In this document: piece after piece, positions 26,960-48,965 of the stretch
Layout: the number at the start of each line of letters is the position of its first letter
Numbering within the stretch: position 1 is the first letter of the stretch
NCBI GenBank assembly: GCA_002011085.2
Contig: MTMB02000001.1
Span: forward strand, 1,339,627 to 1,403,626
DNA: 64,000 bases
Direction: 5' to 3'
From: Candidatus Geothermarchaeum rappei
GTDB taxonomy: Archaea > Thermoproteota > Nitrososphaeria > Geothermarchaeales > JDFR-13
Translations under genes and position numbers: made by a program
The notes under the pieces: generated by a model
The model's input: the letters and a program-made list of their open reading frames with translations, nothing else
The model's database searches: none
Told to the model about the DNA's origin: nothing

Positions 26960-26977
26960 TGGTCCCCGGGGCAGGAT
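26960..26977. repeat. attL: 18-bp copy of the tRNA-Tyr 3' end
   Basis: TGGTCCCCGGGGCAGGAT here is identical to 48948-48965, the 3' end of the tRNA-Tyr gene including CCA. The flanks differ on both sides. Same orientation, 21,988 bp apart. This is the far-end attachment site of the integrated element. Confidence 0.88.
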
Positions 26978-27014
26978 ACTAACATAAATGTTCTAATCCT
27001 TGTCATGTTTTTCT

Positions 27015-27887
27015 CTATTTGAAAAACGTTGCATATATAGCAACTAATAGACTTATAATACCTATTAAATAGTCATATTTGAGAGACTTAAGTTTCTTTA
27101 TAGTACTCTTAACTTCTAACATTTCGTATAGCTTATATGTCTCATTTCTTCTAATCTGCTTACCTACGAAGTTAGATAGAAATCTTAAAATCCCTTCTAA
27201 GTTCTCACTTGGTGCATCCGAAGACATATAGCTTAATAGTTCCTTAAGGTTTCGTTTCAGGTTAATAAGTTTCTCTTTATTATTACTAGAAACATAAAAT
27301 AAAGCAACCTTATAGTATTGTTCAACATTTTTTAAGATCATTTTATCGGGTAAAACAGAAGAAAGATAATCGTTAAAATAGTTTAGACCATCTTTAAACC
27401 ATCTAACGTATTTTCTCGAGAATGGTCTGTCCTTATCTAAGCAAGAAATCTGATCATCTATCTTCTTAATCATAGCTAAAAATAAGATCCTTGCTTTTAC
27501 CAAATCGTCTATTCCTGTTCCCAAATAGGCGATTCCTCTAAAGAAGAGATCAGTAGTAATAAGAGCTAAAATCCATACAAAATAAATGATCAAAAAAGGT
27601 GAGAATAATTGTTTTGTGAATTCATTATACAGATTATATGTGCGTATAATGTATAATGATAAAAAATAGATCATAGATGAGGATAGCGAAGAATATAGAA
27701 ACATTGGATATAGTTTAATCACTGGAACAAGTTTAATTGCATATTTCCCATTTTCACTGAATAGATATATCTCAATAAAGTTGAGGATAGCAATAACCAC
27801 AATAAATAATGATGAAAATTGACTTATGGCTTCTGAGCCGTAATAAAGTGCAACTCCTGTGAGAAAAGCGTTTAATACAAGGATCAC
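27015..27887 (-). CDS. Membrane protein of unknown function at the left end of the element
   Basis: 290 residues from GTG 27887. Four hydrophobic helices fill the first 125 residues, a basic helical domain (about 130-265, 'RKYVRWFKDGLNYFNDYL') follows, and a last helix 'YLIGIISLLVAIYATFF' ends the protein. The frame stays open upstream for 27 more codons without a usual start codon. Base composition is more AT-rich than the structural genes. It lies between attL and the recombinase and may be a late-acquired cargo gene, such as an exclusion or defence protein; that is a guess. Confidence 0.5.
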   Translation of the reverse strand: MILVLNAFLTGVALYYGSEAISQFSSLFIVVIAILNFIEIYLFSENGKYAIKLVPVIKLYPMFLYSSLSSSMIYFLSLYIIRTYNLYNEFTKQLFSPFLIIYFVWILALITTDLFFRGIAYLGTGIDDLVKARILFLAMIKKIDDQISCLDKDRPFSRKYVRWFKDGLNYFNDYLSSVLPDKMILKNVEQYYKVALFYVSSNNKEKLINLKRNLKELLSYMSSDAPSENLEGILRFLSNFVGKQIRRNETYKLYEMLEVKSTIKKLKSLKYDYLIGIISLLVAIYATFFK

Positions 27888-28080
27888 TACTATATGAATA
27901 ATACCTAGGCAATTATCTTTAACAAATAATTTAAATTTAATGGCAAATCTCTTTAATGTTGCTTTAATTTATACCACCAATTATTATTACTCGACAACAA
28001 CAAATATAAGTATCGGCAAAAACGCTCGTTTATGTCCTATGCGGTAAAAAGTTGGTTATTGCCTCTTTGGTGCGTAGAAA

Positions 28081-28680
28081 TTAGGCTGTAATTTTGTCCA
28101 CTTTTAAGGCTCTCCTTACTGTTCTGTCACTGACACCAAGGATCTTGGCTATGGTCCTATAGCTAACCCCCTTCTCTCTAAGTTTCTTGGCCTGCCTAAT
28201 TTGTTCCTGTGTTAATGCTGGTGGGCGGCCAAGCCTCTTACCCTGCTGCCTAGCCTTCTCCAATCCTAGTTTGGTCCTTTGCTTGATGAGCTGTCTCTCA
28301 AAGTCCGCAGCCCAGCTGAGAATACTCAAGATCAGTTTACGAATATTTGGATCTAGGGTAGAGAGCCACTCTTCACGAACACTTATAACAGCTATACCTT
28401 TCTCTTCCAGGACCCAGACTGTGTTAAGGACCTCTCTAAAGCTGCGGCCTATCCTATCTAGGGCATAGACGACTACTGCATCAACCTTATTATAATTAAT
28501 GAATGATAGTAGGCTGCTGAATCCTGGCCTCTTCATGGGATCACTAGCACCAGTAACCGTGTCCTCAAACCAGGCAACAATATCAATACCCCTATTCTCA
28601 GCATAAGATCTAATAGCCAGCTTCTGATTCTCAACATCAAGCTCCTCCTTACTAACCCTAAGATAAGCTATAGCCCTCAT
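28081..28680 (-). CDS. Serine recombinase (resolvase/invertase family) with C-terminal HTH
   Basis: 199 residues. 'AIAYLRVSKEELD' carries the catalytic Ser with its Arg, 'VYALDRIGRSFREVL' the second Arg region, and 'LSWAADFERQLIKQRTKLGLEKA' the long E helix. The C-terminal 50 residues ('GVSYRTIAKILGVSDRTVRRAL') form a helix-turn-helix that binds the crossover site. Likely jobs are resolving element dimers or inverting a segment; integration is served by the tyrosine integrase. Its ATG overlaps the stop of the 56-aa gene upstream (ATGA). No TnpB-like gene accompanies it, so an IS607-type transposon is unlikely. Confidence 0.9.
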   Translation of the reverse strand: MRAIAYLRVSKEELDVENQKLAIRSYAENRGIDIVAWFEDTVTGASDPMKRPGFSSLLSFINYNKVDAVVVYALDRIGRSFREVLNTVWVLEEKGIAVISVREEWLSTLDPNIRKLILSILSWAADFERQLIKQRTKLGLEKARQQGKRLGRPPALTQEQIRQAKKLREKGVSYRTIAKILGVSDRTVRRALKVDKITA

Positions 28681-28847
28681 ATTCTCGACCTCCGCATAAT
28701 CCTTATAATTTTATCTAATAAACGGAGTATTCTATCACAGTCGTCAGGATCTATCTGATCAAAATTATACAGCTGCATTATCTCGCCTCTAACCTTCAAG
28801 AGAGCTTGTATAACCATATTCTTATTATAAACTGTCTTGCTGCTCAT
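28677..28847 (-). CDS. Small hypothetical helical protein between ATPase and recombinase
   Basis: 56 residues from ATG 28847, which has GAGGAGG 3 bases ahead; a longer frame to 28907 lies fully inside the ATPase gene and is not needed. The product is helical ('MVIQALLKVRGEIMQLYNF', 'ILRLLDKIIRIMRR') with a basic end. It overlaps the ATPase end by 23 bases and the recombinase start by 4, so all three are co-translated. The family is unknown; a small DNA-binding or partner protein is possible. Confidence 0.55.
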   Translation of the reverse strand: MSSKTVYNKNMVIQALLKVRGEIMQLYNFDQIDPDDCDRILRLLDKIIRIMRRSRI

Positions 28848-29739
28848 ATTCCTCCTCAACCTCGTTAAGATCTTCAATATCTCCATTACCCCAGTCCCTT
28901 CTGACACGGTAGCCTAGCTTCTCCATGATCTCACGATACGCTTTTAGAAAGTTCTCATTCCTACCTTTGATACCATATTTCCTCAGGATCTCACTAAATT
29001 CCTTAAGCTTGACCTCGGGAGTGGGGGGTGGGGATTGAAGTTTTTTTCTCTTAATAATATTATTAATAGATTTGCTCTCTAGGACAACATAGTTCTTTGG
29101 CAGGGGATAGGGATCTGCTATAGCTATAAACCTCCATCTACCTGCGAAGACGGCCACGGCACTGCTTAGGCCCTCGATAAGATCGTTTTTGTTTCTGGGC
29201 ATAGTAACCTTTAATGTTATCTTAAATAGCTGTCTGAAGTAGCCCTTGCCTAGAAGCGGGCCAATTAACTTAGCATCAGCAGGCTCATTAGGATAGTCTT
29301 TGAATAAATGCAGCTTAGCGGTCCTCCTAAACGTTACATCAAGCAAGTGATAGACTTGGGTGGCATGAAATACGATTAGGGCTCCTGAGAACTCCATCCT
29401 CTTCAGAATATGCCTGATCATGATATACTTCTTACTTGTCTTGATATTAGCCTCGCTATAGGCCCGCCTACCTAGCTGCCCCTCGGCTGCAGGAGCATCA
29501 TCATTAAACAGATAGAAGTATTTTATCTTCCTCAGATCATATTCACTATCTAGATCTCTGATGTTTCGTAGGATATCGACAAAGTTCATCTCCTTTGTGT
29601 GCAGCATAAAGATCTGATCCTCATCAACACCTTGTTTGAGTAAATAGTCGTATGCCTCTCCAATCTTATTACATACCCAAGTAGTCTTGCCAAAGCTCAT
29701 AGGACCAACAATGACAGCAGCATGAAATGGAATCTGCAT
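28825..29739 (-). CDS. P-loop ATPase, HerA/FtsK-type (candidate DNA-packaging or DNA-translocating motor)
   Basis: 304 residues. Walker A 'VGPMSFGKTTWVCNK' sits at residues 11-25, Walker B is 'YFYLFNDDAPA', and the downstream 'LIVFHATQ' with its Gln is the sensor strand of the HerA/FtsK/A32 class. In archaeal viruses such ATPases package the genome; in plasmids they move DNA in conjugation. The C-terminus is acidic ('DLNEVEEEYEQQDS'). The frame is open for 24 codons upstream without a standard start ('HYIAPPHFKLNV'), so the true N-terminus could be longer. It lies between small genes and the surface-protein cassette, as expected for a morphogenesis ATPase. Confidence 0.72.
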   Translation of the reverse strand: MQIPFHAAVIVGPMSFGKTTWVCNKIGEAYDYLLKQGVDEDQIFMLHTKEMNFVDILRNIRDLDSEYDLRKIKYFYLFNDDAPAAEGQLGRRAYSEANIKTSKKYIMIRHILKRMEFSGALIVFHATQVYHLLDVTFRRTAKLHLFKDYPNEPADAKLIGPLLGKGYFRQLFKITLKVTMPRNKNDLIEGLSSAVAVFAGRWRFIAIADPYPLPKNYVVLESKSINNIIKRKKLQSPPPTPEVKLKEFSEILRKYGIKGRNENFLKAYREIMEKLGYRVRRDWGNGDIEDLNEVEEEYEQQDSL

Positions 29740-29789: not shown

Positions 29790-30134
29790 CTACCTTATCG
29801 TTCGTATGACCTCACCTCGCAAGAGCAAACCTTCTCTACTCAAGCTAATCAACGCCTCCTCAACAAGCTCATCTAGAATCTCCATAGCTTTATCCAAATT
29901 CTCTTTAATGATCATGTTCTTGGCCTCCTCCATCTTTGTCCTATGATTCTTAGGACGGATGTTAGGAGTCAGGATGACGAATAAGGCCTCGACAGATCTT
30001 AAATACTCCCATAATGAGTTTCTAAACTTGAATTTCATACTACTATCTATATTGGATCTCCTCTCTGAGATCCTAAGCAAGGCCTTATTAATTACATAGG
30101 TATAATCTACGCTCTCATATGGTACAAAACTCAT
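29790..30134 (-). CDS. Hypothetical helical protein in the morphogenesis cassette
   Basis: 114 residues, almost all helix, rich in Arg, Lys and Glu ('KNMIIKENLDKAMEILDELVEEAL'), with no membrane segment and no known motif. The start ATG overlaps the stop of the gene upstream (ATGA). Function unknown; its place next to the ATPase suggests a virion or packaging accessory role, which is inference only. Confidence 0.55.
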   Translation of the reverse strand: MSFVPYESVDYTYVINKALLRISERRSNIDSSMKFKFRNSLWEYLRSVEALFVILTPNIRPKNHRTKMEEAKNMIIKENLDKAMEILDELVEEALISLSREGLLLRGEVIRTIR

Positions 30135-30424
30135 AGCAACTCCTCCTCATAACCCTCTATCTCCTCATCAGATAACACGAGCTTACGCTTACTCTTGACA
30201 TAGGCCTTGAAAAAGTCAAGCCTAATGGACCCAGGATCTTTGTCAATCTCCTCTAGGAATCGGATGTTCATGAGGATGAGAAGTTCTCTATATGCTGCTT
30301 GTAGCTCGGCATCATTATCTAGATAGACTCCTATTTCACCAAGCTCAGGCAAGATCTTTCTCAGGACCTCCTTGGCTTCTTTTATGCTGCCACGGCCAAG
30401 CTTGAAGAATAGGTTTTCTGGCAC
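30131..30424 (-). CDS. Hypothetical small helical protein
   Basis: 97 residues, helical and acidic at the end ('SDEEIEGYEEELL'), beginning 'MPENLFFKLGRGSIKEAKEV'. Unknown family. It is coupled by ATGA overlap to the next gene and lies 6 bases after the upstream basic protein, so it belongs to the same transcript. Confidence 0.55.
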   Translation of the reverse strand: MPENLFFKLGRGSIKEAKEVLRKILPELGEIGVYLDNDAELQAAYRELLILMNIRFLEEIDKDPGSIRLDFFKAYVKSKRKLVLSDEEIEGYEEELL

Positions 30425-30430
30425 TTAGGA

Positions 30431-30802
30431 TCACCTCTTAGCAATCATCTTTCTGATCATTGCCTTAGTTGATTTACCGTTTATCGTCTTAGGCAGCTTT
30501 CTCTTCTTAGCTACGTACCTAATTAGTCTCTTGATCGTCTCTAACTCCTTCTTGGAGGCTCCATGCTTCTTGGCCAGGACATATATGTATCTCAGTCGCT
30601 TTTTGAAAAGCTCATTTGTCATCTTGATCTTACGACAGTTATTCTTTGGATCATAGGTGTAGCCTCTCCTATAGTCTCTTAAAACGGCATAAGCCAGAGC
30701 CACGGCCTCAGCTACGGTATCGATACCTGGACTAGAGACCCTCCTAATATACTTTCCCTCTCGTTTTGCTAAACACGAGCCTCTACCTTGGTACACGGAC
30801 AT
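30431..30802 (-). CDS. Small basic protein, possible nucleic-acid-binding or virion protein
   Basis: 123 residues from ATG 30802, which has GGGGGTG 7 bases upstream; a GTG at 30811 is an alternative. The protein is very basic, with Lys/Arg-rich helices in the second half ('KRLIRYVAKKRKLPKTINGK'). Such a protein could coat the element's DNA. Upstream lies a 90-base gap holding AGAGGG/CCCTCT hairpin arms (30847-30852 and 30859-30864) and a TATTTTTA box near 30870 on this strand, so a promoter may serve this gene directly. No family recognised. Confidence 0.5.
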   Translation of the reverse strand: MSVYQGRGSCLAKREGKYIRRVSSPGIDTVAEAVALAYAVLRDYRRGYTYDPKNNCRKIKMTNELFKKRLRYIYVLAKKHGASKKELETIKRLIRYVAKKRKLPKTINGKSTKAMIRKMIAKR

Positions 30803-30846
30803 TCTTAACACCCCCTTTACCCCTGGCCAGGTCGCAGGATCTCACC

Positions 30847-30901: not shown

Positions 30902-31474
30902 TCATCTTCTCATCCTCACTATGAATATAGATGCTGCTGTAATTGCAACAAGGGCACCTAATCCAAGGAGGATTGCCTGGTCACGTGATACATTAGCCTG
31001 GCTAGTGGTTGGGTAATTAACCTCTATGACCTCTATTCTCAGCTTTAGAGTTACTTTCCAGTAGGCATTTCCTGAAACGCTTATACCTACGTATAATGTA
31101 CCTTGCTTATTCTTTATGAAATAGTCTGTCCTGTCAATAGGCACTGTAAATGCAGTAGCTACATAAGCAAAGTATATTGCACTTGACTTGGCCGCCTCAT
31201 CTGTCCACCAGGATCCTGAGACTGGTTTATCCGTTATAATCAGGTATCTGCCATAGCTATCACTAATTGCTATACCAGAGGCTATAATCTTGATCTTACC
31301 ACCGATCTCGTAATTTGAGATATCATAATTTAATGATGCAACATGTTTATCCTGAGTAAATGTTACAGATCCGAGATCTACATAGACGACCTTGATTTTC
31401 ACAGCAGTAGCATAAACAGGAACCACTATGGACAGCATGCTCAGTAACATGATTAAGATCAATATCCTCCTCAT
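30902..31474 (-). CDS. Secreted, C-terminally anchored surface protein with element-specific beta domain
   Basis: 190 residues: signal peptide ('ILILIMLLSMLSIVVPVYA'), a beta-rich domain (about 25-150) and one C-terminal helix ('ILLGLGALVAITAASIFIV') followed by RMRR, so the domain faces outside. The domain ('DLGSVTFTQDKHVASLNYD', 'YGRYLIITDKPVSGSWWT', 'TLYVGISV') matches the second half of the large protein at 36624-38033 ('DLGTKTVTPAARIASFSYD', 'YARYYIISTTDPGNKFWG', 'TFYIGVSV'). It is therefore a duplicated building block of the cassette, perhaps a virion spike. AGGAGGAGAGGG precedes the ATG, which overlaps the protease stop. Confidence 0.65.
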   Translation of the reverse strand: MRRILILIMLLSMLSIVVPVYATAVKIKVVYVDLGSVTFTQDKHVASLNYDISNYEIGGKIKIIASGIAISDSYGRYLIITDKPVSGSWWTDEAAKSSAIYFAYVATAFTVPIDRTDYFIKNKQGTLYVGISVSGNAYWKVTLKLRIEVIEVNYPTTSQANVSRDQAILLGLGALVAITAASIFIVRMRR

Positions 31475-32283
31475 TTCCCTCTCCTCCTCATACTCAATAT
31501 GATCATAGTTGATACGATTGCACTGGCCGCCCCACCTGCAACAGCTATTAATAGCTGGCTAGGCAGGGTATTCGTCTGAACATTATTGATTGCACTGGAT
31601 AGACCGACTCTATAGCTTATTCCATTCTTGGATAGAGCTTCTTTTATTGCAGAGACAGAGGTACCGTAATAAAGTGTGGCCGCCTTTCCCTCAAGAGCAA
31701 AACTAACCAATCCTATCACATTCCCAAACTGGTCTGTTATAGGACCTCCAGAGTTTCCTGAATCTACGCTGGCCGAGATCTCAAACAGCTTTTTATCTTG
31801 ATCTACCCAGGCAGCGACACCCATCGACACACGGGGATTCATACTCATCTTTGCAAGATCCCCCATTAACTTGTATAATTCGTATGGATACCCTAGGACG
31901 AAGATGGTCTGTCCCTTCTCAGGATCCTTTGCAGCTAATGAGAATATATATGTCGATGAAGGAGGCTTCTCCACCTTAATAATTGCTATATCTGTTAGGC
32001 TATCTGTATAGATCACATATCCTACCTCACTATAGTCACCTTTGATCAACGTAACCTTAGCATTAGTCTGATAGCTTACCACATGACCTGCTGTTACAAT
32101 ATATTTATTGCTTACAAACCAGCCAGTACCATACTGATCGCCATACAAGACCACAATAACCCCTGCATCCCAAGAAGAGCTATAAAGCTCAGTCTGTGCA
32201 TACGCTGCATACGTTCCTGGCAATACCAGTATTATAAATAAAGATAGGATTAGACTAGCCACTAATCTCCTCATACTCCTCAT
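31471..32283 (-). CDS. Membrane-anchored trypsin/HtrA-like serine protease
   Basis: About 270 residues. A signal peptide ('SLILSLFIILVLPGTYAAYA') leads to a chymotrypsin-fold protease with the full triad: His in 'IVTAGHVVSY', Asp in 'DSLTDIAIIKV', Ser in 'SVDSGNSGGPITD'. The end is a helix ('LLIAVAGGAASAIVSTMIILS') plus RRRGK, so the enzyme sits outside, held by its tail. No PDZ domain is present, unlike most HtrA. A start at 32322 is possible but lies within the upstream gene; ATG 32283 or 32274 follows GGTGGAGG. It may process the surface proteins encoded around it, which is inference from position. Confidence 0.78.
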   Translation of the reverse strand: MRSMRRLVASLILSLFIILVLPGTYAAYAQTELYSSSWDAGVIVVLYGDQYGTGWFVSNKYIVTAGHVVSYQTNAKVTLIKGDYSEVGYVIYTDSLTDIAIIKVEKPPSSTYIFSLAAKDPEKGQTIFVLGYPYELYKLMGDLAKMSMNPRVSMGVAAWVDQDKKLFEISASVDSGNSGGPITDQFGNVIGLVSFALEGKAATLYYGTSVSAIKEALSKNGISYRVGLSSAINNVQTNTLPSQLLIAVAGGAASAIVSTMIILSMRRRGK

Positions 32284-32686
32284 CCTCCACCTTCTCAGGC
32301 GGCCAAATTCTATGTTTTTCACGGCAAATTATTGTTCCATCAGCAAGAACCTCTACATCAGAATCGTGTTCAGAACACCTGATCTTAATCAATCCCGTGT
32401 CTAATGCATTTTTGAGGCCCGCCACCATCTTTGACGATCTCAGGAGATCTCTAAGCTCCTCCTTATGCTGCTGCTCCTTAAACGCCATTCTCTCCTTAAG
32501 CTCCTTGATCTGATCTTTTAGAGCATCAATTCTCTCCTGGTACATAGCCTTGATGCGTTCCGTGTTGTCACGCCTGATAAGTCGATAGATAGCTGCTATA
32601 ACAAGTGGAATAGCCAGGATCCCAAGCAGATCCAAAATAAAATATCCCAAGTCCCTCAACATGAAATAATTAAACAACCCGTCCAT
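32255..32686 (-). CDS. Membrane protein with coiled coil and small Cys/His domain
   Basis: 143 residues. One helix near the N-terminus ('FILDLLGILAIPLVIAAIY') is followed by a charged coiled coil (about 42-85, 'ERIDALKDQIKELKERMAF') and a C-terminal part with 'IRCSEHDSDVEVLADGTIICREKHRIW', where Cys and His pairs could hold a metal. The end is acidic. Unknown family. Its end overlaps the start of the protease gene. Confidence 0.55.
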   Translation of the reverse strand: MDGLFNYFMLRDLGYFILDLLGILAIPLVIAAIYRLIRRDNTERIKAMYQERIDALKDQIKELKERMAFKEQQHKEELRDLLRSSKMVAGLKNALDTGLIKIRCSEHDSDVEVLADGTIICREKHRIWPPEKVEDEEYEEISG

Positions 32687-32690
32687 ACTC

Positions 32691-33029
32691 TCACCTCCTT
32701 ATAACTTCTAAACGCCTGATTGGCTCAGGCAGATAAGACTCGATATACGGCCACGCAAGGGTGGCCAAGAGAGTAACTAAAAAGCTTATAAAAACCATTT
32801 GGGTGGCATAGATCGTCACATATGACGTGACTCCCTTAAGCTTGTTATAAACAACCAAGGTGAATAGAGGCCTGTCTATGCCAAAGGCCCAGAGCATTCC
32901 AGCCCATACCTTACCAACGATCAACATTATTATGAAAGCTGTACGGAGAGATCCAAACCATTTCCAAGCCATCTTCAAGACCATCACCATGCTTATTAGC
33001 ATTGCTATTAAGGCAAGCTCAACCAACAA
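32691..33029 (-). CDS. Small membrane protein, three transmembrane helices
   Basis: 112 residues from TTG 33029, which has GGAGGTGATC ahead and overlaps the end of the upstream gene by 11 bases. Three hydrophobic helices ('LALIAMLISMVMVLKM', 'AFIIMLIVGKVWAGMLWAF', 'TQMVFISFLVTLLATLAW') end in a basic tail. Small membrane proteins of this kind are coat proteins in some crenarchaeal spindle-shaped viruses, but I see no diagnostic match. Confidence 0.5.
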   Translation of the reverse strand: MLVELALIAMLISMVMVLKMAWKWFGSLRTAFIIMLIVGKVWAGMLWAFGIDRPLFTLVVYNKLKGVTSYVTIYATQMVFISFLVTLLATLAWPYIESYLPEPIRRLEVIRR

Positions 33030-34188
33030 CCGTGATCACCTCCGCTTGAGGCGGGGGCGGGGGCTGAGACGGTTCAACCACTGTTTGATTAGACTCTCCT
33101 CCTGGTGCAGCTGGTATAGTCTGATTACCTGGATAGAAGTTTGCTGGCTGCGTCTGATTCTGCTCAGGTGCTGGGGCAACTCCAAACCCATATGCATTAC
33201 CAAGGGCATACCCTATGACTAATCCAATAACTAATGACAGTACGATATATGGTAGGACCTTCTTGGATAGCGGCTGTGTTGATAATCTGACAGCAGCTGA
33301 TGTCTCACCAGCTTTAAACACATCAAACTGCTCTCTAAGGATCTTTGCAATTGTTTGCCTCCATATTTTTGCTAATGCCAATTTAGCGAGAATAACTGCA
33401 GCTAAGCTCTTGCTGCCAGTCTTATCCTTAACCTCATCTAGAGCTTTCTTAACGATTTCAGCTGAATCCTTAGGTACAATGATCCTAATGTCACGGCCAA
33501 GCTTCTCAAGATAGTCCAAGAGTCCTATTGAACTCATGGTAGGTGAAGGCACTATTGAGATATGAGGTGGATTAATGCCTTTAGCATGGTACCAACTATA
33601 AAGAATCGTTCTATCATTCATACGCTGAATGTTTACAAACATCCAGGTAAGTGCGACGAAAAAGATCGTAGTGCTGAGCATAGCCTCCCAAGGATCCAGT
33701 GGCATCTGTATAGCAATACGTAGGGTTTCAAGACCGATCTTAACTTCAGCAATCTCAATAGGAGGGATCCAGCTGACTATCAATGCATAGTAAAACATAT
33801 ACCAAGCTATTGATGCTGCGACTATCCACCTCCAAGCCACTGCGAAGGGGCTAAAGTATCCTGCAGGACCTTTAGCGTCAAACAACGATATAGCCACTGA
33901 TGCCTGAGAGGGCGGAGTTTCAGTAACATACTGTTGTCCATCGACTGTCTTAATGAGGACTTTATCTTTGCTTTGAACCTCCTCGTATTCATAGTCATAG
34001 TAGATATTGACGTCTCCATCAAGCTCTTGAATTACCAGCATCCTCGTTGGGCCAAAAGGCCAGAAAAAGAAAGCTATTTTATCGGCCCATGTTCTCAAGT
34101 GGGCTCTGATGTTCTTGGTCAAGAGGATATATACTACTAGACCTATTGGCATAGAAAGAAGAATAGGGACAATGACGTCTAGACGCAT
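33019..34188 (-). CDS. Large membrane protein with proline-rich C-terminus
   Basis: 389 residues. Hydrophobic helices lie near residues 4-24, 120-142, 170-190 and 318-342. A cytoplasmic-looking domain ('RIIVPKDSAEIVKKALDEV', then a basic helix) lies between helices 3 and 4. The last 45 residues are a Pro/Gln/Asn-rich tail with a run of Pro ('SQPPPPPQAE') and several N-x-T sites, so the tail probably faces outside and may be glycosylated. No family recognised. The stop overlaps the next gene. It may be a scaffold or pore of the particle or secretion complex. Confidence 0.5.
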   Translation of the reverse strand: MRLDVIVPILLSMPIGLVVYILLTKNIRAHLRTWADKIAFFFWPFGPTRMLVIQELDGDVNIYYDYEYEEVQSKDKVLIKTVDGQQYVTETPPSQASVAISLFDAKGPAGYFSPFAVAWRWIVAASIAWYMFYYALIVSWIPPIEIAEVKIGLETLRIAIQMPLDPWEAMLSTTIFFVALTWMFVNIQRMNDRTILYSWYHAKGINPPHISIVPSPTMSSIGLLDYLEKLGRDIRIIVPKDSAEIVKKALDEVKDKTGSKSLAAVILAKLALAKIWRQTIAKILREQFDVFKAGETSAAVRLSTQPLSKKVLPYIVLSLVIGLVIGYALGNAYGFGVAPAPEQNQTQPANFYPGNQTIPAAPGGESNQTVVEPSQPPPPPQAEVITVVG

Positions 34189-35949
34189 CTAAGTTCTCAC
34201 CCTAATGCCCTTAGTCGTGAATAAAATCACTGCTATTATCATCACAACCAAGAAAGCACCCAAGAGCAGTAGCTTTGTTTGCTCACTGCTGGATGTAGAT
34301 GTTTCAGCTGGCACTGTATTCTGTAGCTGGATATCTTGTTTCTGATATACAAGCTGATAATTCCAGATTCCACTTACTTCTATCGTAGCCTCAGGTAGTG
34401 GCCTATCAACATTAACCTCTATGCTTCCAGACTGATCGGTCGTGTTTGAAGCAATAACGACACCAGAGGGATCCGCCACCCTCACAAGAAGATCTGGCAC
34501 AGGAGTACCCTGATCCAACACTGTAACCTTAAGCATGTTACCATTCAATTCAGCAAGGATATCCAAGTTATTACTAGCCTTAGAATCAGCCTGAACAATG
34601 ACTTGGCCATTCGCTACCGACTCCATAATGGGGATATCTACGTACCCTTCTGAACCTATTTTAGCCTCACCGACAACAATGCCATTAGCATCCACGATCT
34701 GAATTGTGGCACCATAGGGACCGTACACCCTAACTTTCTGACTGGGAACCCATGCCTCGATAGTAGCTTGACTAACCAGATCAGTATTAAGATCAATTGA
34801 GTAGTCCTCAATTTGCTCATCATCGTTTACTGGAGAGCCACTTACCGTGAATTTCCTTAACACATTTCCATTCTGATCCTTGATCTGAATTATGCTACCT
34901 TCTGGGAACCACTTAAAGTGTAGCTTGTTATCTGATGCTAAAGAAGAAATAAACCACATCCAAGTTTGTTCTGCTGGAATTCTAATAATATTATTATTTG
35001 GTGTCCCTGGAGTCCCATCATGTAAAAAATAGCTAGATCCATTATAGAACGTCGGGTCAGCCAATGCAAAAAGTGCTGAACCCAGTACCCTGCTTTGAAC
35101 TTCATTATAGTATTCTACATCATTATATTCTAGGTAAAAAGCTGCATAAGCAATTCTACCTACCCAGTCAGTAGCATGATAAGTGGTTATTTCACCAACA
35201 TGTACGTATTTTGAAGCTGTATAAGCATATGCGTTAGCTGTATTAGATCCAGAGATTTCTGTATAACTTACACCATTTATGGTAGCTTTACCAACTGTAT
35301 TATTAGCATCTATTACTTTTCTTGCACCACTAATTGTTATCCAGTCATTATAATCAGCATCTCCGAATATAAACTCAGTATTTATTATCCATAGAGATGG
35401 TTTTTTAATATGACCATATGTTTCGTCTGTTCTGAAGGACACTGAGCCTCCCCAGTGATCAGTGAAGCCAGCTATTGTGTGTATTGCATAACTAAATCCA
35501 GCTTCTACGTCTGTAACATAATCATTTACCTTAAATGTTGTAACAATCGTCCAATACCAAGGGGTTGTAGTGGTATCTATGGAGACAGTCTTATCATATC
35601 TTACATAGTCATATAAAGCACTGACATAGAAATCATATAGGTGTGGTGCTATTACGTCGTTTGGCCTTAGATCTATGTTCTCTAGCTTCAGATATTCATA
35701 GAGCTGCGTATCTTTCAGTTTGACTTGCCATCCCTGTTTATCGGCTACTACTTGATAGACTTGGCCAGGCTCGATAGTTGATAATGTTGCTAGTGTGAGG
35801 ACTGGTTTGTCTCCGATCTCGGTAGATAGCCATGGCAAAAGTTTGATGCTAGCTACGTTTCTGTAGAACATGTATAGCCCTAATGCTCCACCGACCAGGA
35901 TCAGCAATATAATAACAAGCAAAACCGTATTTACATTACCCTTCCTCAT
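34189..35949 (-). CDS. Large surface protein anchored at both ends (candidate virion spike or adhesin)
   Basis: 586 residues. An N-terminal helix ('TVLLVIILLILVGGALGLYMF') and a C-terminal helix ('LLLLGAFLVVMIIAVILFTT') bracket a large beta-rich part. The first two thirds have many aromatic residues, Thr and Asn ('WGGSVSFRTDETYGHI', 'YYNEVQSRVLGSALFAL'). From about 385 a set of short repeated sandwich domains follows ('VRVYGPYGATIQIVDANG', 'VRVADPSGVVIASNTTDQSG'), resembling carboxypeptidase-regulatory or Ig-like folds. A Thr/Ser linker precedes the tail. This is the largest protein of the cassette and the best candidate for a receptor-binding spike; the function is inferred. Confidence 0.6.
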   Translation of the reverse strand: MRKGNVNTVLLVIILLILVGGALGLYMFYRNVASIKLLPWLSTEIGDKPVLTLATLSTIEPGQVYQVVADKQGWQVKLKDTQLYEYLKLENIDLRPNDVIAPHLYDFYVSALYDYVRYDKTVSIDTTTTPWYWTIVTTFKVNDYVTDVEAGFSYAIHTIAGFTDHWGGSVSFRTDETYGHIKKPSLWIINTEFIFGDADYNDWITISGARKVIDANNTVGKATINGVSYTEISGSNTANAYAYTASKYVHVGEITTYHATDWVGRIAYAAFYLEYNDVEYYNEVQSRVLGSALFALADPTFYNGSSYFLHDGTPGTPNNNIIRIPAEQTWMWFISSLASDNKLHFKWFPEGSIIQIKDQNGNVLRKFTVSGSPVNDDEQIEDYSIDLNTDLVSQATIEAWVPSQKVRVYGPYGATIQIVDANGIVVGEAKIGSEGYVDIPIMESVANGQVIVQADSKASNNLDILAELNGNMLKVTVLDQGTPVPDLLVRVADPSGVVIASNTTDQSGSIEVNVDRPLPEATIEVSGIWNYQLVYQKQDIQLQNTVPAETSTSSSEQTKLLLLGAFLVVMIIAVILFTTKGIRVRT

Positions 35950-35951: not shown

Positions 35952-36590
35952 TTATCGCCTCCTCATCAGGACAAGAACTAAGACTACGACTATGACTGCC
36001 CCAGCTCCAAATAGGAGATACTGCATCTGAAGCTCACTCACAGATGGCGGATTATAGCCTTCTCCAGTACCAGAGTCGCTTGTATTTTGGTTTGAATTAT
36101 CTGATGTAGGTAGAACTTCTGGGGCGCTTACACTGGCTCCTTGGGCTACTATCTCGTACTTGTCCTTATTTGCAACAAAGCTGTGAACGAATTTTCCATT
36201 AACACTGATCTTTATCTGACCATCGTATCCATATACAATTGTAACATCATGCTCTCCAACATTTTGAATAGTGACTGTAGCCTTAACCTCTTCACGGCCC
36301 GCCTGCTTCCATACAACCTTTATGCCCTGCTCCACTTTGAAGCCCTCTAATACTCCTCCCTTGGATCCATATCCAATAACAAGCACTGAATAGTCACTTG
36401 TTGAAATACCGACTATATCTCCAAGAGTCTCACCTGGCCAGAATGGTGGAGCTGGTACTGAGACCTTAGCAGACACCTTATATCCTTTAGGCAGGTAGTA
36501 TCCTGTGGATGTAGCGTCATATGCATAGACTGTCATAGCCATAGTCAATATCAATATAAAAAAGAGTGGAATGATGACTATCCTACGCAT
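35952..36590 (-). CDS. Secreted, tail-anchored beta-rich surface protein
   Basis: 212 residues from ATG 36590 (GAGGTGATG lies upstream; 36602 is an alternative). A signal peptide ('IVIIPLFFILILTMAMTVYA') is followed by a beta-rich domain with 'PPFWPGETLGDIVGIS' and 'VYGYDGQIKISVNGKFVHSF', a Ser/Asn/Thr linker, and a C-terminal helix ('YLLFGAGAVIVVVLVLVLM') with RRR. The build (signal, beta domain, linker, tail anchor) repeats that of its neighbours. The strand pattern could be a ConA/LamG-like sandwich, but that needs a structure search. Confidence 0.55.
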   Translation of the reverse strand: MRRIVIIPLFFILILTMAMTVYAYDATSTGYYLPKGYKVSAKVSVPAPPFWPGETLGDIVGISTSDYSVLVIGYGSKGGVLEGFKVEQGIKVVWKQAGREEVKATVTIQNVGEHDVTIVYGYDGQIKISVNGKFVHSFVANKDKYEIVAQGASVSAPEVLPTSDNSNQNTSDSGTGEGYNPPSVSELQMQYLLFGAGAVIVVVLVLVLMRRR

Positions 36591-36623
36591 CTTGCACATC
36601 ACCTCTTTCCCAAGAGGCTTGAG

Positions 36624-41973: not shown

Positions 41974-42660
41974 CTACACCTCATACCAAGCCTTCCTCAA
42001 GGTTTTTCTATAGACCTTAAATCCAAGGTATTCCAGGTTTTTGATCAGCTCTAGAGTCTTATCCTCTTGGGGCTCTGGCAGGTTATGGTTATAGTTGTCG
42101 TAGCCGATGAAGATCATCTCAGGGTTAATCATGATAATCCAGTTTTGAAAGGCCACGAGATCAAAGTCGAAGATAGGCTCGATAGATAAGAACAACCTAA
42201 GATCATATGAAGATAGATCCTCCATAGCATACAATCTACTCAATGGATCTGGAGCCCTGCTATACCTACTATAATTAGGTACATATTGAGACTCCACTGT
42301 AGCCCCCAGGATCATATTACCTGTAAAGAGATCCAAGAACTCCATATACCTCCTGGGATTCTTTGTCAAAAACATGAATGTAGCCCTAGAGCCAGAGGAG
42401 TGTATGGCCTCCAAAACAGAGGTGATCCACTCACCAGGAACATCATCAGCAAAAAGATCAGCCATATCACAAACAAACACAAATCCGTTCTTAGGGATCC
42501 TCTTAAGCCTCTCAGGATAAAACTTGGGCTTTGTAAAGTCTTTATACATGTGCTTTAACCTAGTCTGAGCCAAACGCCTGGCCCAACAATATCGACATAG
42601 ATATGGGCAGCCAACAACAGGGTTCCAAGTCCTGGTAACCTGAGAGAACATCCTACTCAT
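41974..42660 (-). CDS. Radical-SAM-like protein of the DUF5131 (phage Gp37/Gp68) type
   Basis: 228 residues. 'RTWNPVVGCPYLCRYCWARRLA' gives the CxxxCxxC cluster motif in the 'WNP-GC' context typical of DUF5131, and 'FVFVCDMADLFADDVP', 'TFMFLTKNPRRY' and 'LFLSIEPIFDFD' follow in the family order. These proteins are common in bacteriophages and occur in archaeal viruses; the reaction is not known. GGAGGTGATAG precedes the ATG, which overlaps the end of the nuclease-like gene by 8 bases. Confidence 0.82.
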   Translation of the reverse strand: MSRMFSQVTRTWNPVVGCPYLCRYCWARRLAQTRLKHMYKDFTKPKFYPERLKRIPKNGFVFVCDMADLFADDVPGEWITSVLEAIHSSGSRATFMFLTKNPRRYMEFLDLFTGNMILGATVESQYVPNYSRYSRAPDPLSRLYAMEDLSSYDLRLFLSIEPIFDFDLVAFQNWIIMINPEMIFIGYDNYNHNLPEPQEDKTLELIKNLEYLGFKVYRKTLRKAWYEV

Positions 42661-43147: not shown

Positions 43148-44164
43148 CTAGGCATAGAATACCTCACCTCCTGAGGACCTATCTTCATTTTCCTGAGGTT
43201 CAAGATCCATCATCTTTTCAAATATCTTGACAATCTTCTCTAGGCCCGTGCTCAGATCATTTAACGACTTAACTATCTTAACCTGATTCTCCTCCAAGAC
43301 CTGGATCCTCTGCAGCAGCATATTCATATCTTGGGAGAAGCGGGCCAAGATCTCAGGTAACATACGGTAATAAACCACAGCAGAAATATCCTTAAACTCA
43401 AGCCTGGCCCCCCTATTATGACTATCATCAATACTAAACTTATCACCCTTAACAACCCCAACATCACGATAAATATCCCTGGCCCAGGGATCCTCAACCT
43501 CAAAATGAGGCTTAAAAACACGCCAACCAACAATCCTCCTACCAAGAGACCTAGCAACAGCCTCACCAACCTTATAAGTAGCAATCAACAAACTATCACG
43601 AAGAACCTGAGGATCCACATCACCCCTAACACTAGGACCATAAACCACCATAGAACCCCCCTTATAAACCAAGACACTCAACCCATCAACCCTGGCCCGC
43701 CACTTACCCTCCTGAAACTCAACAAAAAACCCAGGAACACAAGCCCTATCAACAGGCCCATCCAACTCAAACCTGACCCCAAAATGATGAATCCCGACAA
43801 CAACCCCCACCCCGCCCGCCGACCCCCCGTCGATTTTTTGGACTCCCGTATGTGTTTTATATATATCTAGTATTGACTTTCCCTTTAGGGTTACTCGATA
43901 GACGTGTGTAGCATGTGCAGGATCATATTCTCTAACAACCAGACCTAGTTTAATCAATTTATTTAATCTATAATATACAGTAGATTTTTTCAAATCAGGA
44001 AAGATTTTAACGATCATAGCAGGGACAAAGCCCTCATCAATAAGAGACAAAATATGTACATCCTGGGGCTTCAACTTCTTAGTAATGTTATTCAGTCCAA
44101 ATTTAGTCCAAAAATCTAGTGTGTTTTTGGACTGTTCATATTTTTTATATATTTCAGGCTCCAT
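43148..44164 (-). CDS. Winged-helix DNA-binding protein with unknown C-terminal domain
   Basis: 338 residues. The N-terminal 105 residues hold a winged helix of the MarR/ArsR kind ('ILSLIDEGFVPAMIVKIFPDL', 'TVYYRLNKLIKLGLVVREY'). A Gly-rich linker ('GGSAGGVGVVVG') joins it to a beta-rich domain (about 125-280) and a C-terminal coiled coil ('LLQRIQVLEENQVKIVKSL'). Codon use changes at the linker: the N-terminal part is AT-rich, the following part uses GGT/AGG/GTT codons almost without pause. That suggests a fusion of two sources. A regulator or replication-initiation role is possible. Confidence 0.55.
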   Translation of the reverse strand: MEPEIYKKYEQSKNTLDFWTKFGLNNITKKLKPQDVHILSLIDEGFVPAMIVKIFPDLKKSTVYYRLNKLIKLGLVVREYDPAHATHVYRVTLKGKSILDIYKTHTGVQKIDGGSAGGVGVVVGIHHFGVRFELDGPVDRACVPGFFVEFQEGKWRARVDGLSVLVYKGGSMVVYGPSVRGDVDPQVLRDSLLIATYKVGEAVARSLGRRIVGWRVFKPHFEVEDPWARDIYRDVGVVKGDKFSIDDSHNRGARLEFKDISAVVYYRMLPEILARFSQDMNMLLQRIQVLEENQVKIVKSLNDLSTGLEKIVKIFEKMMDLEPQENEDRSSGGEVFYA

Positions 44165-45958: not shown

Positions 45959-46097
45959 CTTTCTCATCCTCCCGTGTAATTTTATCAAGTTTCTCCAAGA
46001 GGTCGTAGGCTTTCTTGATCAGCCTAGTTTGCCTTTCCCACAATGCCCTAGGAACTAGGACATAATCCTCACGTATCTTGACCTGATGCTCACTCAT
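45945..46097 (-). CDS. Small hypothetical protein
   Basis: 50 residues from ATG 46097, inside the end of the AbrB-like gene. A strand-like start ('HQVKIREDYVLVPRALW') followed by a long helix ('TRLIKKAYDLLEKLDKI'). The start resembles the N-terminus of small antitoxin-like or AbrB-adjacent proteins, but that is weak. Confidence 0.45.
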   Translation of the reverse strand: MSEHQVKIREDYVLVPRALWERQTRLIKKAYDLLEKLDKITREDEKDGRY

Positions 46098-46494
46098 TTT
46101 CCTGGACCACCTCCTCAACAGCCTGCAAATTAACTTGTAGGATAGCAAGGGCCTCAGATGCCTCACTTAGTTTCTTCCTGGCATCATTAAGAACACTAAG
46201 AGGTACAGGAATCTCCCTCTCTAGTTCTTTCCTCATGTCCTCTATGAACTCGATCCAGTTTCCTATGATCGTGGAATTGATTGAACCAAGTGAGCGTCTT
46301 TGTAAAACAGGTCTCTTCCTAAGAAGAAGCTGGGTTATAAAGTCTCCTGGTAATGTTACCATTACTAGAACTAGATCGCCCTTGTCTACATCGAGCTCAC
46401 TTCTGATGTCCTTTGGAATGGTTACTTTCCCATCGTCAAGAATCCTACGAGTAAAAATATAAATTGGTCTAGATGTTCCGATGTTCCGATTCAT
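46090..46494 (-). CDS. AbrB/SpoVT-type transcription regulator
   Basis: 134 residues. 'RILDDGKVTIPKDIRSELDVDKGDLVLV' spans the swapped-hairpin DNA-binding fold (the core 'GKVTIPKDIRSELDVDKGD' is characteristic). A long helical C-terminus follows ('EFIEDMRKELEREI', 'LSEASEALAILQVNLQAVEE') that may mediate assembly. Such proteins are common repressors in crenarchaeal elements. A CTTAAATAC box lies about 35 bases upstream, next to the palindrome at 46542-46563, which may be its own operator. Confidence 0.82.
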   Translation of the reverse strand: MNRNIGTSRPIYIFTRRILDDGKVTIPKDIRSELDVDKGDLVLVMVTLPGDFITQLLLRKRPVLQRRSLGSINSTIIGNWIEFIEDMRKELEREIPVPLSVLNDARKKLSEASEALAILQVNLQAVEEVVQENE

Positions 46495-46606: not shown

Positions 46607-46870
46607 ATGTTTGATGAGCCCGTTGTAACATTGCTAATATACATCTATAGAAACGGAGGAACAATTGAGAATTTCAGAGCTACAATGACAAAACTAGATT
46701 ATAGTTCATCTAAACTTGATAGAGCTAGAAGGGTCCTCAAACAATATGGGTTGATACGAGAAGAAATTGTAAAAGGAGCTCCTGTGGTTCTAAAGATTAC
46801 TTTAACAGATAAAGGTAAAGAGGCTGCTAGAAAAATAATTGATCTAAAGAAGTTCCTAGAAGAGGCCTAG
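46607..46870 (+). CDS. Small winged-helix regulator
   Basis: 87 residues. 'VVTLLIYIYRNGGTIENFRATMTKLDYSSSK' opens a wHTH (first helices), 'LDRARRVLKQYGLIREEIV' is the recognition part and 'VVLKITLTDKGKEAARKIID' the wing and last helix, as in PadR/MarR-like regulators. It faces the AbrB-like gene across a palindrome, so the two may repress each other. The end overlaps the convergent gene at 46856 by 15 bases. Confidence 0.7.
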   Translation: MFDEPVVTLLIYIYRNGGTIENFRATMTKLDYSSSKLDRARRVLKQYGLIREEIVKGAPVVLKITLTDKGKEAARKIIDLKKFLEEA

Positions 46871-47029
46871 CTGCCTACGTATGTGTTGAAGCTTATTTTC
46901 TTTTGCTGTAGCTAGAGCCCTGAGTATTGTGTTCTCGATCTCAGGGGTCAGTAAGCCTTTCTGTCTCAGCATATCCAAGACCATCTCAATAGCATCTTCA
47001 AATCCCCTAAGGTAGATCTCATTAGCCAT
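46856..47029 (-). CDS. Small hypothetical helical protein
   Basis: 57 residues from ATG 47029 with GGTGAGG ahead (ATG 47041 is an alternative). It is one run of helices ('GFEDAIEMVLDMLRQKGLLTP', 'NTILRALATAKENKLQHIRRQ'). No known family. Convergent overlap with the winged-helix gene. Confidence 0.45.
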   Translation of the reverse strand: MANEIYLRGFEDAIEMVLDMLRQKGLLTPEIENTILRALATAKENKLQHIRRQLGLF

Positions 47030-47165
47030 GGGCCTCACCATTTTTAATTGAAAGCAGAAAATTATTTAAGTATAGATAAAATTAGATAGAGTGACATGTT
47101 TGTGAAAGTTTTATTTTTAATTCTGATAATATTTATTTATAACCTAGTTGGTGGGGGAGATCTTC

Positions 47166-47756
47166 TTGAGTGAAGGGGCAAAGGGTTCCAGGATCGTTAC
47201 GGTGATACTTGTTGTTTTGGTGGTAGCATTACTTGCTTTATCTGGATACCTCTATATGAAGAATATTCAATTGAGCGAGGATATTGCTAAACTTCAGGTC
47301 GAGGTTCAAACATTAACATCAGAGAAACAAAGCCTGCAATCCCAGTTACAGCAATTGATAAGTGAGAACAACCAACTGAAAAGTGAGGTCTCAAGTTTAC
47401 AGAGTCAGATATCTGTTCTTAATGACCAGATCTATACTTTACAGAGAGTGGTAAACCTTGAGGTATCCGAGGCTTGGTATTCTGATGAAACATTTAATCT
47501 TCCAGCTCTAACTTATATGCCTTATACATTATACCCTGGACGAGCAGGTTATTTCATACTTACCTTTACTGCCACACAGAATATAACTATAACTGTAGAT
47601 GGCTACTATGAAGGATATAGATATCATCTTGAGTGGAACTTGGCCCACGGCACAATTATAATACCTGTGCTTCCAGGGAGAGTAGAGATCTCATTCCATA
47701 ACTTTAATTGGTTCAGTGGCGTAACAGTAACATTTGACCTAACCTACGTCTATTAG
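47166..47756 (+). CDS. Membrane-anchored coiled-coil protein with beta domain (possible fibre)
   Basis: 196 residues from TTG 47166, which has GGTGGGGGAG before it (TTG 47148 is an alternative). An N-terminal helix ('VTVILVVLVVALLALSGYLYM') is followed by a perfect-looking coiled coil (about 38-95, heptads such as 'LQSQLQQLISENNQLKSEV') and a beta-rich end ('YTLYPGRAGYFILTF', 'VEISFHNFNWFSGVTVTF'). The build is that of a trimeric stalk with a head, outside the cell. It lies alone between regulators and the integrase; being so close to the end it may be a lysogenic conversion gene or a virion fibre. Confidence 0.55.
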   Translation: MSEGAKGSRIVTVILVVLVVALLALSGYLYMKNIQLSEDIAKLQVEVQTLTSEKQSLQSQLQQLISENNQLKSEVSSLQSQISVLNDQIYTLQRVVNLEVSEAWYSDETFNLPALTYMPYTLYPGRAGYFILTFTATQNITITVDGYYEGYRYHLEWNLAHGTIIIPVLPGRVEISFHNFNWFSGVTVTFDLTYVY

Positions 47757-47761
47757 ATCCT

Positions 47762-48886
47762 CTACACTTTTTTTCTTATTATTCCTACTATTTTCATGTA
47801 TTCCCTGAGTTCTTCTCTCAGCTCCTGGATCTCTTCTCTTATGTCTTTATGCTCTAGTAGGGCCTCGTAGCTTATGATTTCAGCCTCCTTACTTAGTGGT
47901 CGTCCACACTTGACACAATATTGTTGGATTGGTAAGTTATATGTGTTGCATCCCCTGCATTTTATATATGGATCGTCGTTTTTCGGTTTTTCACCATAGA
48001 AGCTTAGGAGCTTCTCTTCTACGTCTTGCATAGCCAAGTGGTTATAAAACTCTAAGGTCTTGTCTCTCTTTATTCCAAACATTTTTTTCACAATATGAGA
48101 TGGCAGGTATTTAAGCATCTCCGTGATTCTGGTATGCCGCAGAATATATGGTTTTTTATATGTTGTTTTTACGTTTGCTTTCTCCATTATCCTCTTTAGA
48201 TTGACTCTATAGGCCTCATACTGCAGCGGCTTTCCCCAGTTATCGTACCATAGATAGCTAGAGGGCTTTGGATCAGGATGCTTTTCAAGCCATTCAACCA
48301 CATAAGGAATACATAGAAATATTGGAAAGGTACGTGTCTCTGTCTTGGTCATAGGGATCGTTATATATCCATAATTACCTTTGATATCAAGATCCTTTAT
48401 CCTAAGTTCCATAAGCTCAGACGGTCTAGCTCCAGTCTCATACCCAACCATTATCATTGCACGATACATAGTCCCAGTAACTTGCAGCATAGCCCATATA
48501 TCTTCATGCGTAAGTAGATCACTCTTCTGCAGATTATTCCTAGGCTCTTTAACTTTAATCAACTTAGTTAGATCCTCTCTACCCTTTAAACGCAAATAAG
48601 ACCTCAAAATATACTTGTCCCCCGCCTTGGTCCACTCAGAATAATCCTCAGACTCAAGTCTAGCCAAGAACCTAATAACATTCTCTCTAGTAAGATTCAG
48701 ACTACCATTCCAACGCAGATAATTATACAAGACATAGATATACCTGATAACCCTCCTAATACTCAATCCCTTAGCACGAAGAACCTCAACAAGATCAACA
48801 ACATCACTATAATATCCTGGATAATTCCTCTTAAACAAATTAAGAACCCTGTTGAGCTCCCTCTCAGTAACCCTAATCCGAGGCAT
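47762..48886 (-). CDS. Tyrosine site-specific integrase with C-terminal zinc ribbon
   Basis: 374 residues. An N-terminal SAM-like core-binding domain (about 1-115) and the catalytic domain are visible: Arg in 'GYETGARPSELMELRI', then 'YILRHTRITEML', and the nucleophile Tyr in 'TLEFYNHLAM'. After it come 'CRGCNTYNLPIQQYCVKCG' (a zinc ribbon, two CxxC) and a helical tail. The gene is whole, not split by the att site, and reads away from the tRNA whose 3' end is the target. It joins the circular element to tRNA-Tyr. The ribbon after the catalytic domain is unusual for such integrases, though similar additions occur in archaeal recombinases. Confidence 0.92.
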   Translation of the reverse strand: MPRIRVTERELNRVLNLFKRNYPGYYSDVVDLVEVLRAKGLSIRRVIRYIYVLYNYLRWNGSLNLTRENVIRFLARLESEDYSEWTKAGDKYILRSYLRLKGREDLTKLIKVKEPRNNLQKSDLLTHEDIWAMLQVTGTMYRAMIMVGYETGARPSELMELRIKDLDIKGNYGYITIPMTKTETRTFPIFLCIPYVVEWLEKHPDPKPSSYLWYDNWGKPLQYEAYRVNLKRIMEKANVKTTYKKPYILRHTRITEMLKYLPSHIVKKMFGIKRDKTLEFYNHLAMQDVEEKLLSFYGEKPKNDDPYIKCRGCNTYNLPIQQYCVKCGRPLSKEAEIISYEALLEHKDIREEIQELREELREYMKIVGIIRKKV

Positions 48887-48926
48887 TCCACCAAAATAAA
48901 CCTACAAACCATATTTAAGCATAGAC

Positions 48927-48938
48927 CAGGATTTGAAC
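48927..48938. repeat. 12-bp direct copy of tRNA T-arm sequence beside attR
   Basis: CAGGATTTGAAC occurs at 48927-48938 and again at 48960-48971 inside the tRNA, 33 bp apart in the same direction. The outer copy lies between the integrase start and the tRNA and could be an integrase arm site or a trace of an earlier integration. Confidence 0.45.
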
Positions 48939-48947
48939 ATTAGGGTA

Positions 48948-48965
48948 TGGTCCCCGGGGCAGGAT
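48948..48965. repeat. attR: tRNA-Tyr 3' end, 18-bp match to attL
   Basis: Identical to 26960-26977. It covers the encoded CCA, discriminator, 3' acceptor strand and part of the T stem, so the intact tRNA gene here borrows its last bases from the element. Confidence 0.88.

Follow-up and report, generated by a model that had tools for sequence, protein, structure and literature searches.

A 22-kb element in the tRNA-Tyr gene of a Geothermarchaeales archaeon: a probable provirus related to Sulfolobus super-elliptical virus and the guttavirus APOV1

Introduction

What kind of element occupies the 3' end of the tRNA-Tyr gene in Candidatus Geothermarchaeum rappei? A 64-kb stretch of this genome (contig MTMB02000001.1, positions 1,339,627 to 1,403,626; hereafter the window, whose numbering is used throughout) contains, between positions 26960 and 48965, a region that an initial annotation described as a complete integrated element of unknown family. 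Here we argue that the element is, in all likelihood, a temperate double-stranded (ds) DNA provirus with a membrane-bounded (ovoid or spindle-like) particle, and that it belongs to a lineage joining Sulfolobus super-elliptical virus (SSEV) and the guttavirus APOV1.

Not a classical crenarchaeon, the host is related, by a deep branch, to the Nitrososphaeria-type archaea; its class-mates (f4, f10) are presumably ammonia oxidisers. The crenarchaeal framing first given to the element has been abandoned, since the host sits instead in the Geothermarchaeales family of JdFR-13. No described virus of Geothermarchaeota was found in the literature searched (titles and abstracts, mostly outside subscription journals).

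Results

Integration at tRNA-Tyr

The element is bounded by an 18-bp direct repeat, TGGTCCCCGGGGCAGGAT, which is present in exactly two copies across the window, attL at 26960-26977 and attR at 48948-48965. The right copy constitutes the terminal 18 bases of a tRNA-Tyr(GTA) gene (T-loop end, acceptor strand, and CCA), and a second copy of these bases would be expected by chance only ~2e-6 times in 64 kb, both strands included. The tRNA gene (complement 48948-49075) is intact and carries an anticodon-loop intron; ARAGORN overlooks it at default settings and reports it only when introns are allowed. Next to it, on the minus strand, as are all genes below unless marked otherwise, lies a tyrosine integrase of 374 amino acids (aa) with a C-terminal zinc ribbon (47762-48886; Phage_integrase 8e-19). 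Because the attachment (att) site is outside this open reading frame (ORF), at a distance of 61 bp, the gene is whole and not split by att, and the distinction originally drawn from the split SSV-type gene is correct. Across the phylum, 122 of 300 genomes have homologs of the integrase; thus, it is no group-defining marker. Among named genomes scanned with the integrase alignment, JdFR-13 alone matched.

The integrated element measures 21,988 bp (22.0 kb) and is present as a single copy in its one-contig, 1.58-Mb genome. As originally claimed, it contains about 35 closely spaced ORFs, mostly on the minus strand; all named ORFs are open and no decay was seen. The repeats, the intact tRNA gene and the whole integrase, each of which had been noted in the initial annotation, support its view of a complete element in tRNA-Tyr. 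Judged from these features, integration proceeded at the tRNA 3' end via the integrase and att sites, leaving the tRNA gene whole.

The corresponding locus was compared in two relatives: G001, of the same genus, and G003 (MTMA02000006, Ca. Scotarchaeum otlingeri JdFR-13, Geothermarchaeales), of the same family. In G001, the right flank of tRNA-Tyr is 84-88% identical to that of the window, and the 270-aa gene found left of attL in the window has a homolog within ~80 bp of the tRNA 3' end, with homologs of the 100- and 124-aa left-flank genes next. In G003, homologs of the 515-, 124-, 100-, 334-, and 270-aa left-flank genes come after tRNA-Tyr. No element proteins were found encoded between tRNA-Tyr and the left-flank homologs in either genome, and a search across the family found no vertically inherited copy of the element's gene order at this locus. 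The site without the element is established at the gene level rather than the base level; in G001 a base-exact empty site is unreadable because the flanking gene is inverted and the block rearranged.

A module shared with SSEV

Pfam and PHROGs assign names to no more of the element than its integrase, serine recombinase, trypsin-like protease, superfamily 2 (SF2) helicase, and DUF5131 protein, along with Ig-like domains and small regulators. When the 389-aa membrane protein (33019-34188), the hallmark of the group described here, was compared with phage records by tblastn, a single record matched, that of SSEV (E 6e-18). An all-against-all comparison with SSEV then gives four homologs encoded by contiguous genes (31471-34188), plus a gp23-like regulator. 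The four are the 389-aa protein (gp33; E 3e-28), a 112-aa multi-transmembrane protein (32691-33029; gp2; 32%, E 3e-10), a 143-aa protein with transmembrane (TM) and coiled-coil segments (32255-32686; gp8; 30%, E 1e-9), and a 283-aa trypsin-like serine protease (31471-32322; gp9; 34%, E 6e-25). The protease (Trypsin_2 2.9e-21) retains H80, D111, and S191 and, like gp9, carries an N-terminal signal and a C-terminal TM anchor. When the four proteins were shuffled, the best E value in 200 trials was 0.003. Searches with the 389-aa and protease alignments against viral contigs gave no match.

By sequence comparison, then, four consecutive element proteins are homologous to, and partly syntenic with, those of SSEV. 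The earlier statement that no family marker is visible does not stand, given these matches, and the virus-like membrane cassette proposed at the same time proves homologous to the SSEV module. SSEV, whose host is S. islandicus, was deposited as an isolated virus and is filed under Fuselloviridae in GenBank; the literature searched mentions it once, as "Fuselloviridae (SseV isolate 1)" (PMC11065993).

Related proviruses and the link to APOV1

Among 398 genomes, the 389-aa profile detects three further genomes, G292, G111, and G379. The G292 provirus encodes homologs of the ATPase (38%, E 4e-43), the 126-aa protein (52%, E 2e-29), the protease (43%, E 3e-49), the 389-aa protein (27%), and the 112-aa protein (32%). 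The G111 provirus has a 126-aa homolog (61%, E 6e-44) together with homologs of the protease and of the 389-, 112-, and 114-aa proteins, while the G379 provirus has a 389-aa homolog and an ATPase related by profile comparison. Direct repeats that are tRNA 3' ends bound the proviruses in G292 (Ser, 36 bp), G379 (Arg, 56 bp), and G003 (Cys, 14 bp), enclosing ~22.6, ~20.6, and ~16.0 kb, respectively. Proteins of 147 aa (G292:C1:762996-763439) and 140 aa (G111:C29:85215-85637), which by eye resemble PIN-type toxins, are found inside the virion gene clusters.

Window, G292, and G111 have in common the gene order 126-97-114-ATPase, the G111 ATPase being of another subfamily. The 126-aa basic protein (30431-30811), possibly a DNA-condensing protein, belongs to the family of orf14 of the ovoid guttavirus APOV1, to which it is 46% identical (E 6e-33; 46-59% across the group); orf14 is the one clear homolog that the element and APOV1 share. 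A module common to APOV1 and fuselloviruses has been noted by the International Committee on Taxonomy of Viruses (PMC5882108), in agreement with the links drawn here. The structural model of the 126-aa protein is fair (78.6), and Foldseek found no solved relative. Homologs of this protein are present in 42 of the 398 genomes, mostly as a single copy, many of these genomes belonging to two other families; viruses may have captured it from a host, or hosts from viruses. The 97-aa protein (30131-30424) is kept by position only, G292 and G111 each having an ORF of similar size there, and the 114-aa protein (29790-30134) is 48% identical over 31 aa to a G111 protein in the same order (E 1e-4). Taken together, the late operon reads as a virion/morphogenesis module homologous to those of SSEV and other archaeal proviruses, plus an APOV1-type basic protein.

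The ATPase

The 304-aa P-loop ATPase (28825-29739), a probable morphogenesis or packaging motor, has a Walker A motif and belongs to no named family in Pfam or PHROGs. In hhalign comparisons it is related to the ATPases of G379 (95%) and G003 (89.5%); searches against phages and IMG/VR gave no match. Its original designation as HerA/FtsK-type finds no support in Pfam or PHROGs, and related viruses carry a B251 (DnaA-like) type at the same place: SSEV gp6, APOV1 orf19, and the G111 ATPase match SSV1 B251 (E 2e-11, 4e-15, and 6e-14; profile 1e-25), a fusellovirus core protein described as DnaA-like (PMC9608457). Against this set the window ATPase reaches an hhalign value of 6.7%, and its one connection to the set runs via the G379 protein. 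A virus of Lokiarchaeota, WyrdV1, has an ATPase that the G003 ATPase matches; the WyrdV1 record also contains His1-like (spindle-virus) coat proteins. An ATPase annotated as a DnaA-like initiator on an 84-kb plasmid of an uncultured archaeon (LC711081.1, 67403-67951) is 32% identical to the G003-element ATPase. A window-type ATPase interrupted by several stop codons (G385:C16:3346-4016, locus L092) marks a decayed provirus; G385 shares its genus with G198, which carries an APOV1-like orf14.

Surface proteins and a two-helix hairpin

Five proteins (190, 283, 586, 216, and 480 aa) combine an N-terminal signal or anchor with a C-terminal membrane segment, and three further element proteins have membrane segments. 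The membrane cassette first reported, given there as six signal-peptide or tail-anchored proteins, is supported; the protein listed there as 469 aa is an ORF of 480 aa counted from the first ATG. The 190-aa protein (30902-31474) has the same place as SSEV gp10. The 586-aa protein (34189-35949), probably the spike or attachment protein, has Ig-like domains (Big_6 4e-8); both it (E 1e-13) and an 1843-aa surface protein of the G003 provirus have domains in common with gp10 of Hyperthermophilic Archaeal Virus 2. AF2 modelling of the 586-aa protein gave a mean pLDDT of 41, too low for its fold to be compared with that of VP4. For the 216-aa protein (35952-36602), signal peptide and C-terminal TM are predicted.

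The 480-aa protein (36624-38066) ends in a predicted two-TM hairpin. This coat-like domain (residues 406-480, 36624-36851) forms the last 75 residues, behind the protein's own C-terminal TM, and a GGGKKKG linker precedes its first TM. Short two-helix hairpins of the same pattern occur in SSEV (gp31 and gp32), in G292 (63 aa), and in G111 (90 and 69 aa). In G292 a hairpin also ends a 591-aa ORF, which has the order protease, TM, second signal, ectodomain, TM, GGGKRG, hairpin; a 612-aa ORF consists of two joined signal-ectodomain-TM units. Both G292 ORFs (G292:C1:756462-760323, locus L048) have internal signal-like segments after a TM, and are possible polyproteins in an archaeal provirus.

Other genes of the element and its left flank

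At the AT-rich end beside attL, the element encodes a 290-aa membrane protein with three hydrophobic segments (27015-27887), for which Pfam and PHROGs gave no match, and a 199-aa serine recombinase of the resolvase/invertase type (28081-28680; Pfam Resolvase 1.5e-38, phrog_125 7.5e-54). No counterpart of the recombinase was seen in the related proviruses, and it is possibly a later arrival. An AT-rich stretch on the plus strand (38270-39400) contains three ORFs of 134, 87, and 147 aa. It is followed by a 515-aa XPB/UvsW-like SF2 helicase (39650-41197; ResIII 2.8e-20, phrog_16 8e-41), a 228-aa DUF5131/radical-SAM-like protein (41974-42660; DUF5131 3.7e-17), whose homolog in the G379 provirus is 49% identical and which matches two PADLOC candidate models, and a 338-aa helix-turn-helix (HTH) protein (43148-44164), a candidate replication initiator or regulator (25%, E 5e-5 to a 293-aa protein of the G003 element). 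The region near the integrase encodes a 134-aa AbrB-like regulator (46090-46494; MazE_antitoxin 4e-4; G003-element homolog E 1e-5), an 87-aa winged-helix regulator on the plus strand (46607-46870; G003 43%, E 2e-13; SSEV gp23 E 5e-4; phrog_11046), a 61-aa protein common with the G003 element (46856-47041; 37%, E 1e-8), and, on the plus strand, a 202-aa protein with predicted TM and coiled-coil segments (47148-47756).

Outside the element, beside attL, an AT-rich block (21276-26910, ~32% GC) contains the genes of 515, 124, 100, 334, and 270 aa, none of which has a Pfam match. These genes adjoin tRNA-Tyr in G001 and G003 as well, and G003 has the 515-aa gene in duplicate; the block is possibly a mobile or defence island of older date. 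Assignment of the 515-aa protein as DpdA/TGT was dropped, as neither Pfam nor PADLOC gave a match. A 69-aa ORF (26701-26910) looks like a piece of the 515-aa gene (ILAG.SWYLD motif), which hints that the flank has undergone local duplication and decay.

Discussion

A provirus and how it might work

The element is very probably a dormant virus of Geothermarchaeales. In the life cycle that we propose, the integrase would excise the DNA as a circle, and the helicase and HTH protein would assist the host replisome in copying it. The 389-, 112-, and 143-aa membrane proteins could form, with the ATPase, a membrane-bound apparatus for assembly and DNA loading, while the 126-aa basic protein would condense the DNA. 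Two-helix hairpins might line the particle membrane; the tail-anchored ectodomain proteins (586, 480, 216, and 190 aa) would make up the surface, with the anchored serine protease trimming them, and an ovoid or spindle-like enveloped particle would leave by budding.

Several points weigh against this reading. The element is known from its genes alone, and particle, excised circle, and function are deduced from them; it may be a defective or domesticated provirus. The window ATPase appears linked to the B251 family only distantly. Sequence and profile scores of the hairpins are weak, as expected since the segments are short and hydrophobic, and their assignment as coat proteins draws on the hydrophobic pattern. 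Finally, SSEV itself is barely described in the literature searched.

A bolder version of the provirus reading is tentative and, in our judgement, rather doubtful: a new family of enveloped archaeal viruses, ranging from Sulfolobales to Geothermarchaeales, whose surface proteins and two-helix coat hairpin are made as fused precursors. In the window and G292, ectodomain proteins, protease, and hairpin seem to have been fused repeatedly. Fused internal signals would need signal peptidase, a prepilin-type peptidase (a [KR]G motif precedes the TM), or the viral protease. If true, this would be a polyprotein strategy as in some enveloped eukaryotic viruses; we know of no such strategy documented in archaeal viruses.

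Alternative explanations

A spindle-shaped virus belonging to Fuselloviridae proper would account for the GenBank filing of SSEV, for the B251-type ATPases of SSEV, APOV1, and G111, and for a weak C-terminal match of the 389-aa family to SSV1 B277 (a 25-aa stretch; hhalign 31%), which we treat as a lead only. We consider this unlikely. The core genes of the family are VP1, VP4, C166, A82, A92, A154, B115, B251, and integrase (PMC9608457), and beyond the B277 stretch no element protein matches SSV1 significantly: comparison with the VP1 region, VP4 (C792), C166, A82, B251, and integrase gave nothing significant (A92 and B115 were uncompared under those names), and neither did that of A153/A154 with the 143-aa family. 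The core genes compared are absent or unrecognisable, and the element's integrase is not split by att. Nor did the comparison support SSV1 C102, A153, A82, and C84 as possible equivalents of the 112-aa, 143-aa, and hairpin proteins.

A capsid-less integrative plasmid spreading in membrane vesicles, like the pT26-2 family (whose plan is similar, see below) or pR1SE, is quite unlikely: the element's module is homologous to that of a virus deposited as an isolate, and a tblastn search of plasmids with the G003 ATPase gave two weak partial matches only. A relative of the pleolipoviruses or thalassapleoviruses (VP4-fusogen viruses) would be alike in plan and size, as AvPV1, at 17.9 kb, resides in a tRNA gene and encodes a membrane protein, spike, and NTPase (PMC10919331). 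However, hhalign of the spike, 389-aa family, and ATPase against HRPV6, HRPV3, and His2 stays at <=15%, at the P-loop only, and profile comparison found no match to a VP4-like fusogen, homologous ORF6/ORF7, or NTPase (~15% or less), making this kinship very improbable. Thaumarchaeal integrative conjugative elements do occur as integrated elements (PMC6563490), but Pfam and PHROGs scans detected none of the conjugation markers (the signature ATPases VirB4/VirD4, as well as TadC, FlaI/PilT, and TFIIB) in the proteins they covered, and this explanation, already disfavoured, has next to nothing to recommend it. Fixed host DNA with an accidental repeat, raised initially as a possible refutation, has nothing found in its favour and can be dismissed in view of the chance expectation for the repeat, the absence (at the gene level) of the element beside tRNA-Tyr in two relatives, and the related elements in other tRNA genes.

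Fuselloviridae thus fails on core genes and Pleolipoviridae on the NTPase and ORF6/7, and Guttaviridae shares one clear gene, which places the element in an archaeal membrane-virus assemblage with SSEV, touching APOV1. No recognised family is defined by its gene set, and the SSEV/APOV1 lineage fits no existing family cleanly. The suggestion that it may be a new lineage therefore survives in that respect; it has to be amended in that sequenced relatives exist, one of them an isolated virus.

Significance

A dormant virus in the deep-branching Geothermarchaeales would be an early sign of viruses in this archaeal group. The shared morphogenetic module, present in proviruses of several Thermoproteota families, connects the poorly placed SSEV and APOV1, and SSEV thereby gains a host range and a lineage. 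The 389-aa, protease, hairpin, and 126-aa proteins offer handles on how ovoid or spindle-like archaeal virions form.

Comparison with known systems

The pT26-2 plasmid family resembles the element in plan, with a membrane-protein core, an ATPase, and chromosomal integration (PMC6972569); comparisons, which did not extend to its seven core genes, gave no link at the sequence level. SSV1 resembles the group in the B251-type ATPase of related elements and in the weak B277-like tail of the 389-aa family; it differs in that counterparts of VP1, VP4, and C166 were undetected in the element, whose integrase is unsplit by att. Guttaviridae are defined by morphology, an ovoid or droplet-shaped enveloped virion (PMC5882108). 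APOV1 has, like the element, the 126-aa protein, a tRNA-integrated provirus, and surface proteins with signal and membrane segments. Unlike the element, it is 13.8 kb, with an ATPase of another subfamily and an SSV-type integrase, and no homolog of the 389-aa protein or protease was detected in it. APOV1 is a circular dsDNA, and the element, integrated at 22.0 kb, would form a circle too; Guttaviridae (Betaguttavirus) are circular dsDNAs of 14 to 20 kb.

The G003 provirus (MTMA02000006, ~1235519-1251567) comes from the same host family and has a related integrase (36%), winged-helix protein (43%), ATPase, and 61-aa, AbrB, and HTH proteins; it differs in its 16-kb length, its location in tRNA-Cys, and its 1843-aa surface protein, and has a 411-aa protein where the element has the 389-aa one, with homology between them undetectable. 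The G292 provirus (G292:C1:751398-774042, Thermoproteota) shares the ATPase, 126-aa, protease, 389-, and 112-aa homologs and a similar length, unlike the element in having its surface proteins fused into the 612- and 591-aa ORFs. SSEV (isolate 1, MN539721) is a 15.4-kb circle whose homologs are 24-34% identical, with an ATPase of the B251 subfamily and no homolog found of the 126-aa protein, helicase, or integrase. It has, like the element, the 389-, 112-, and 143-aa proteins, the anchored protease, and the winged-helix regulator, in a module with tail-anchored surface proteins, hairpin proteins, and a P-loop ATPase.

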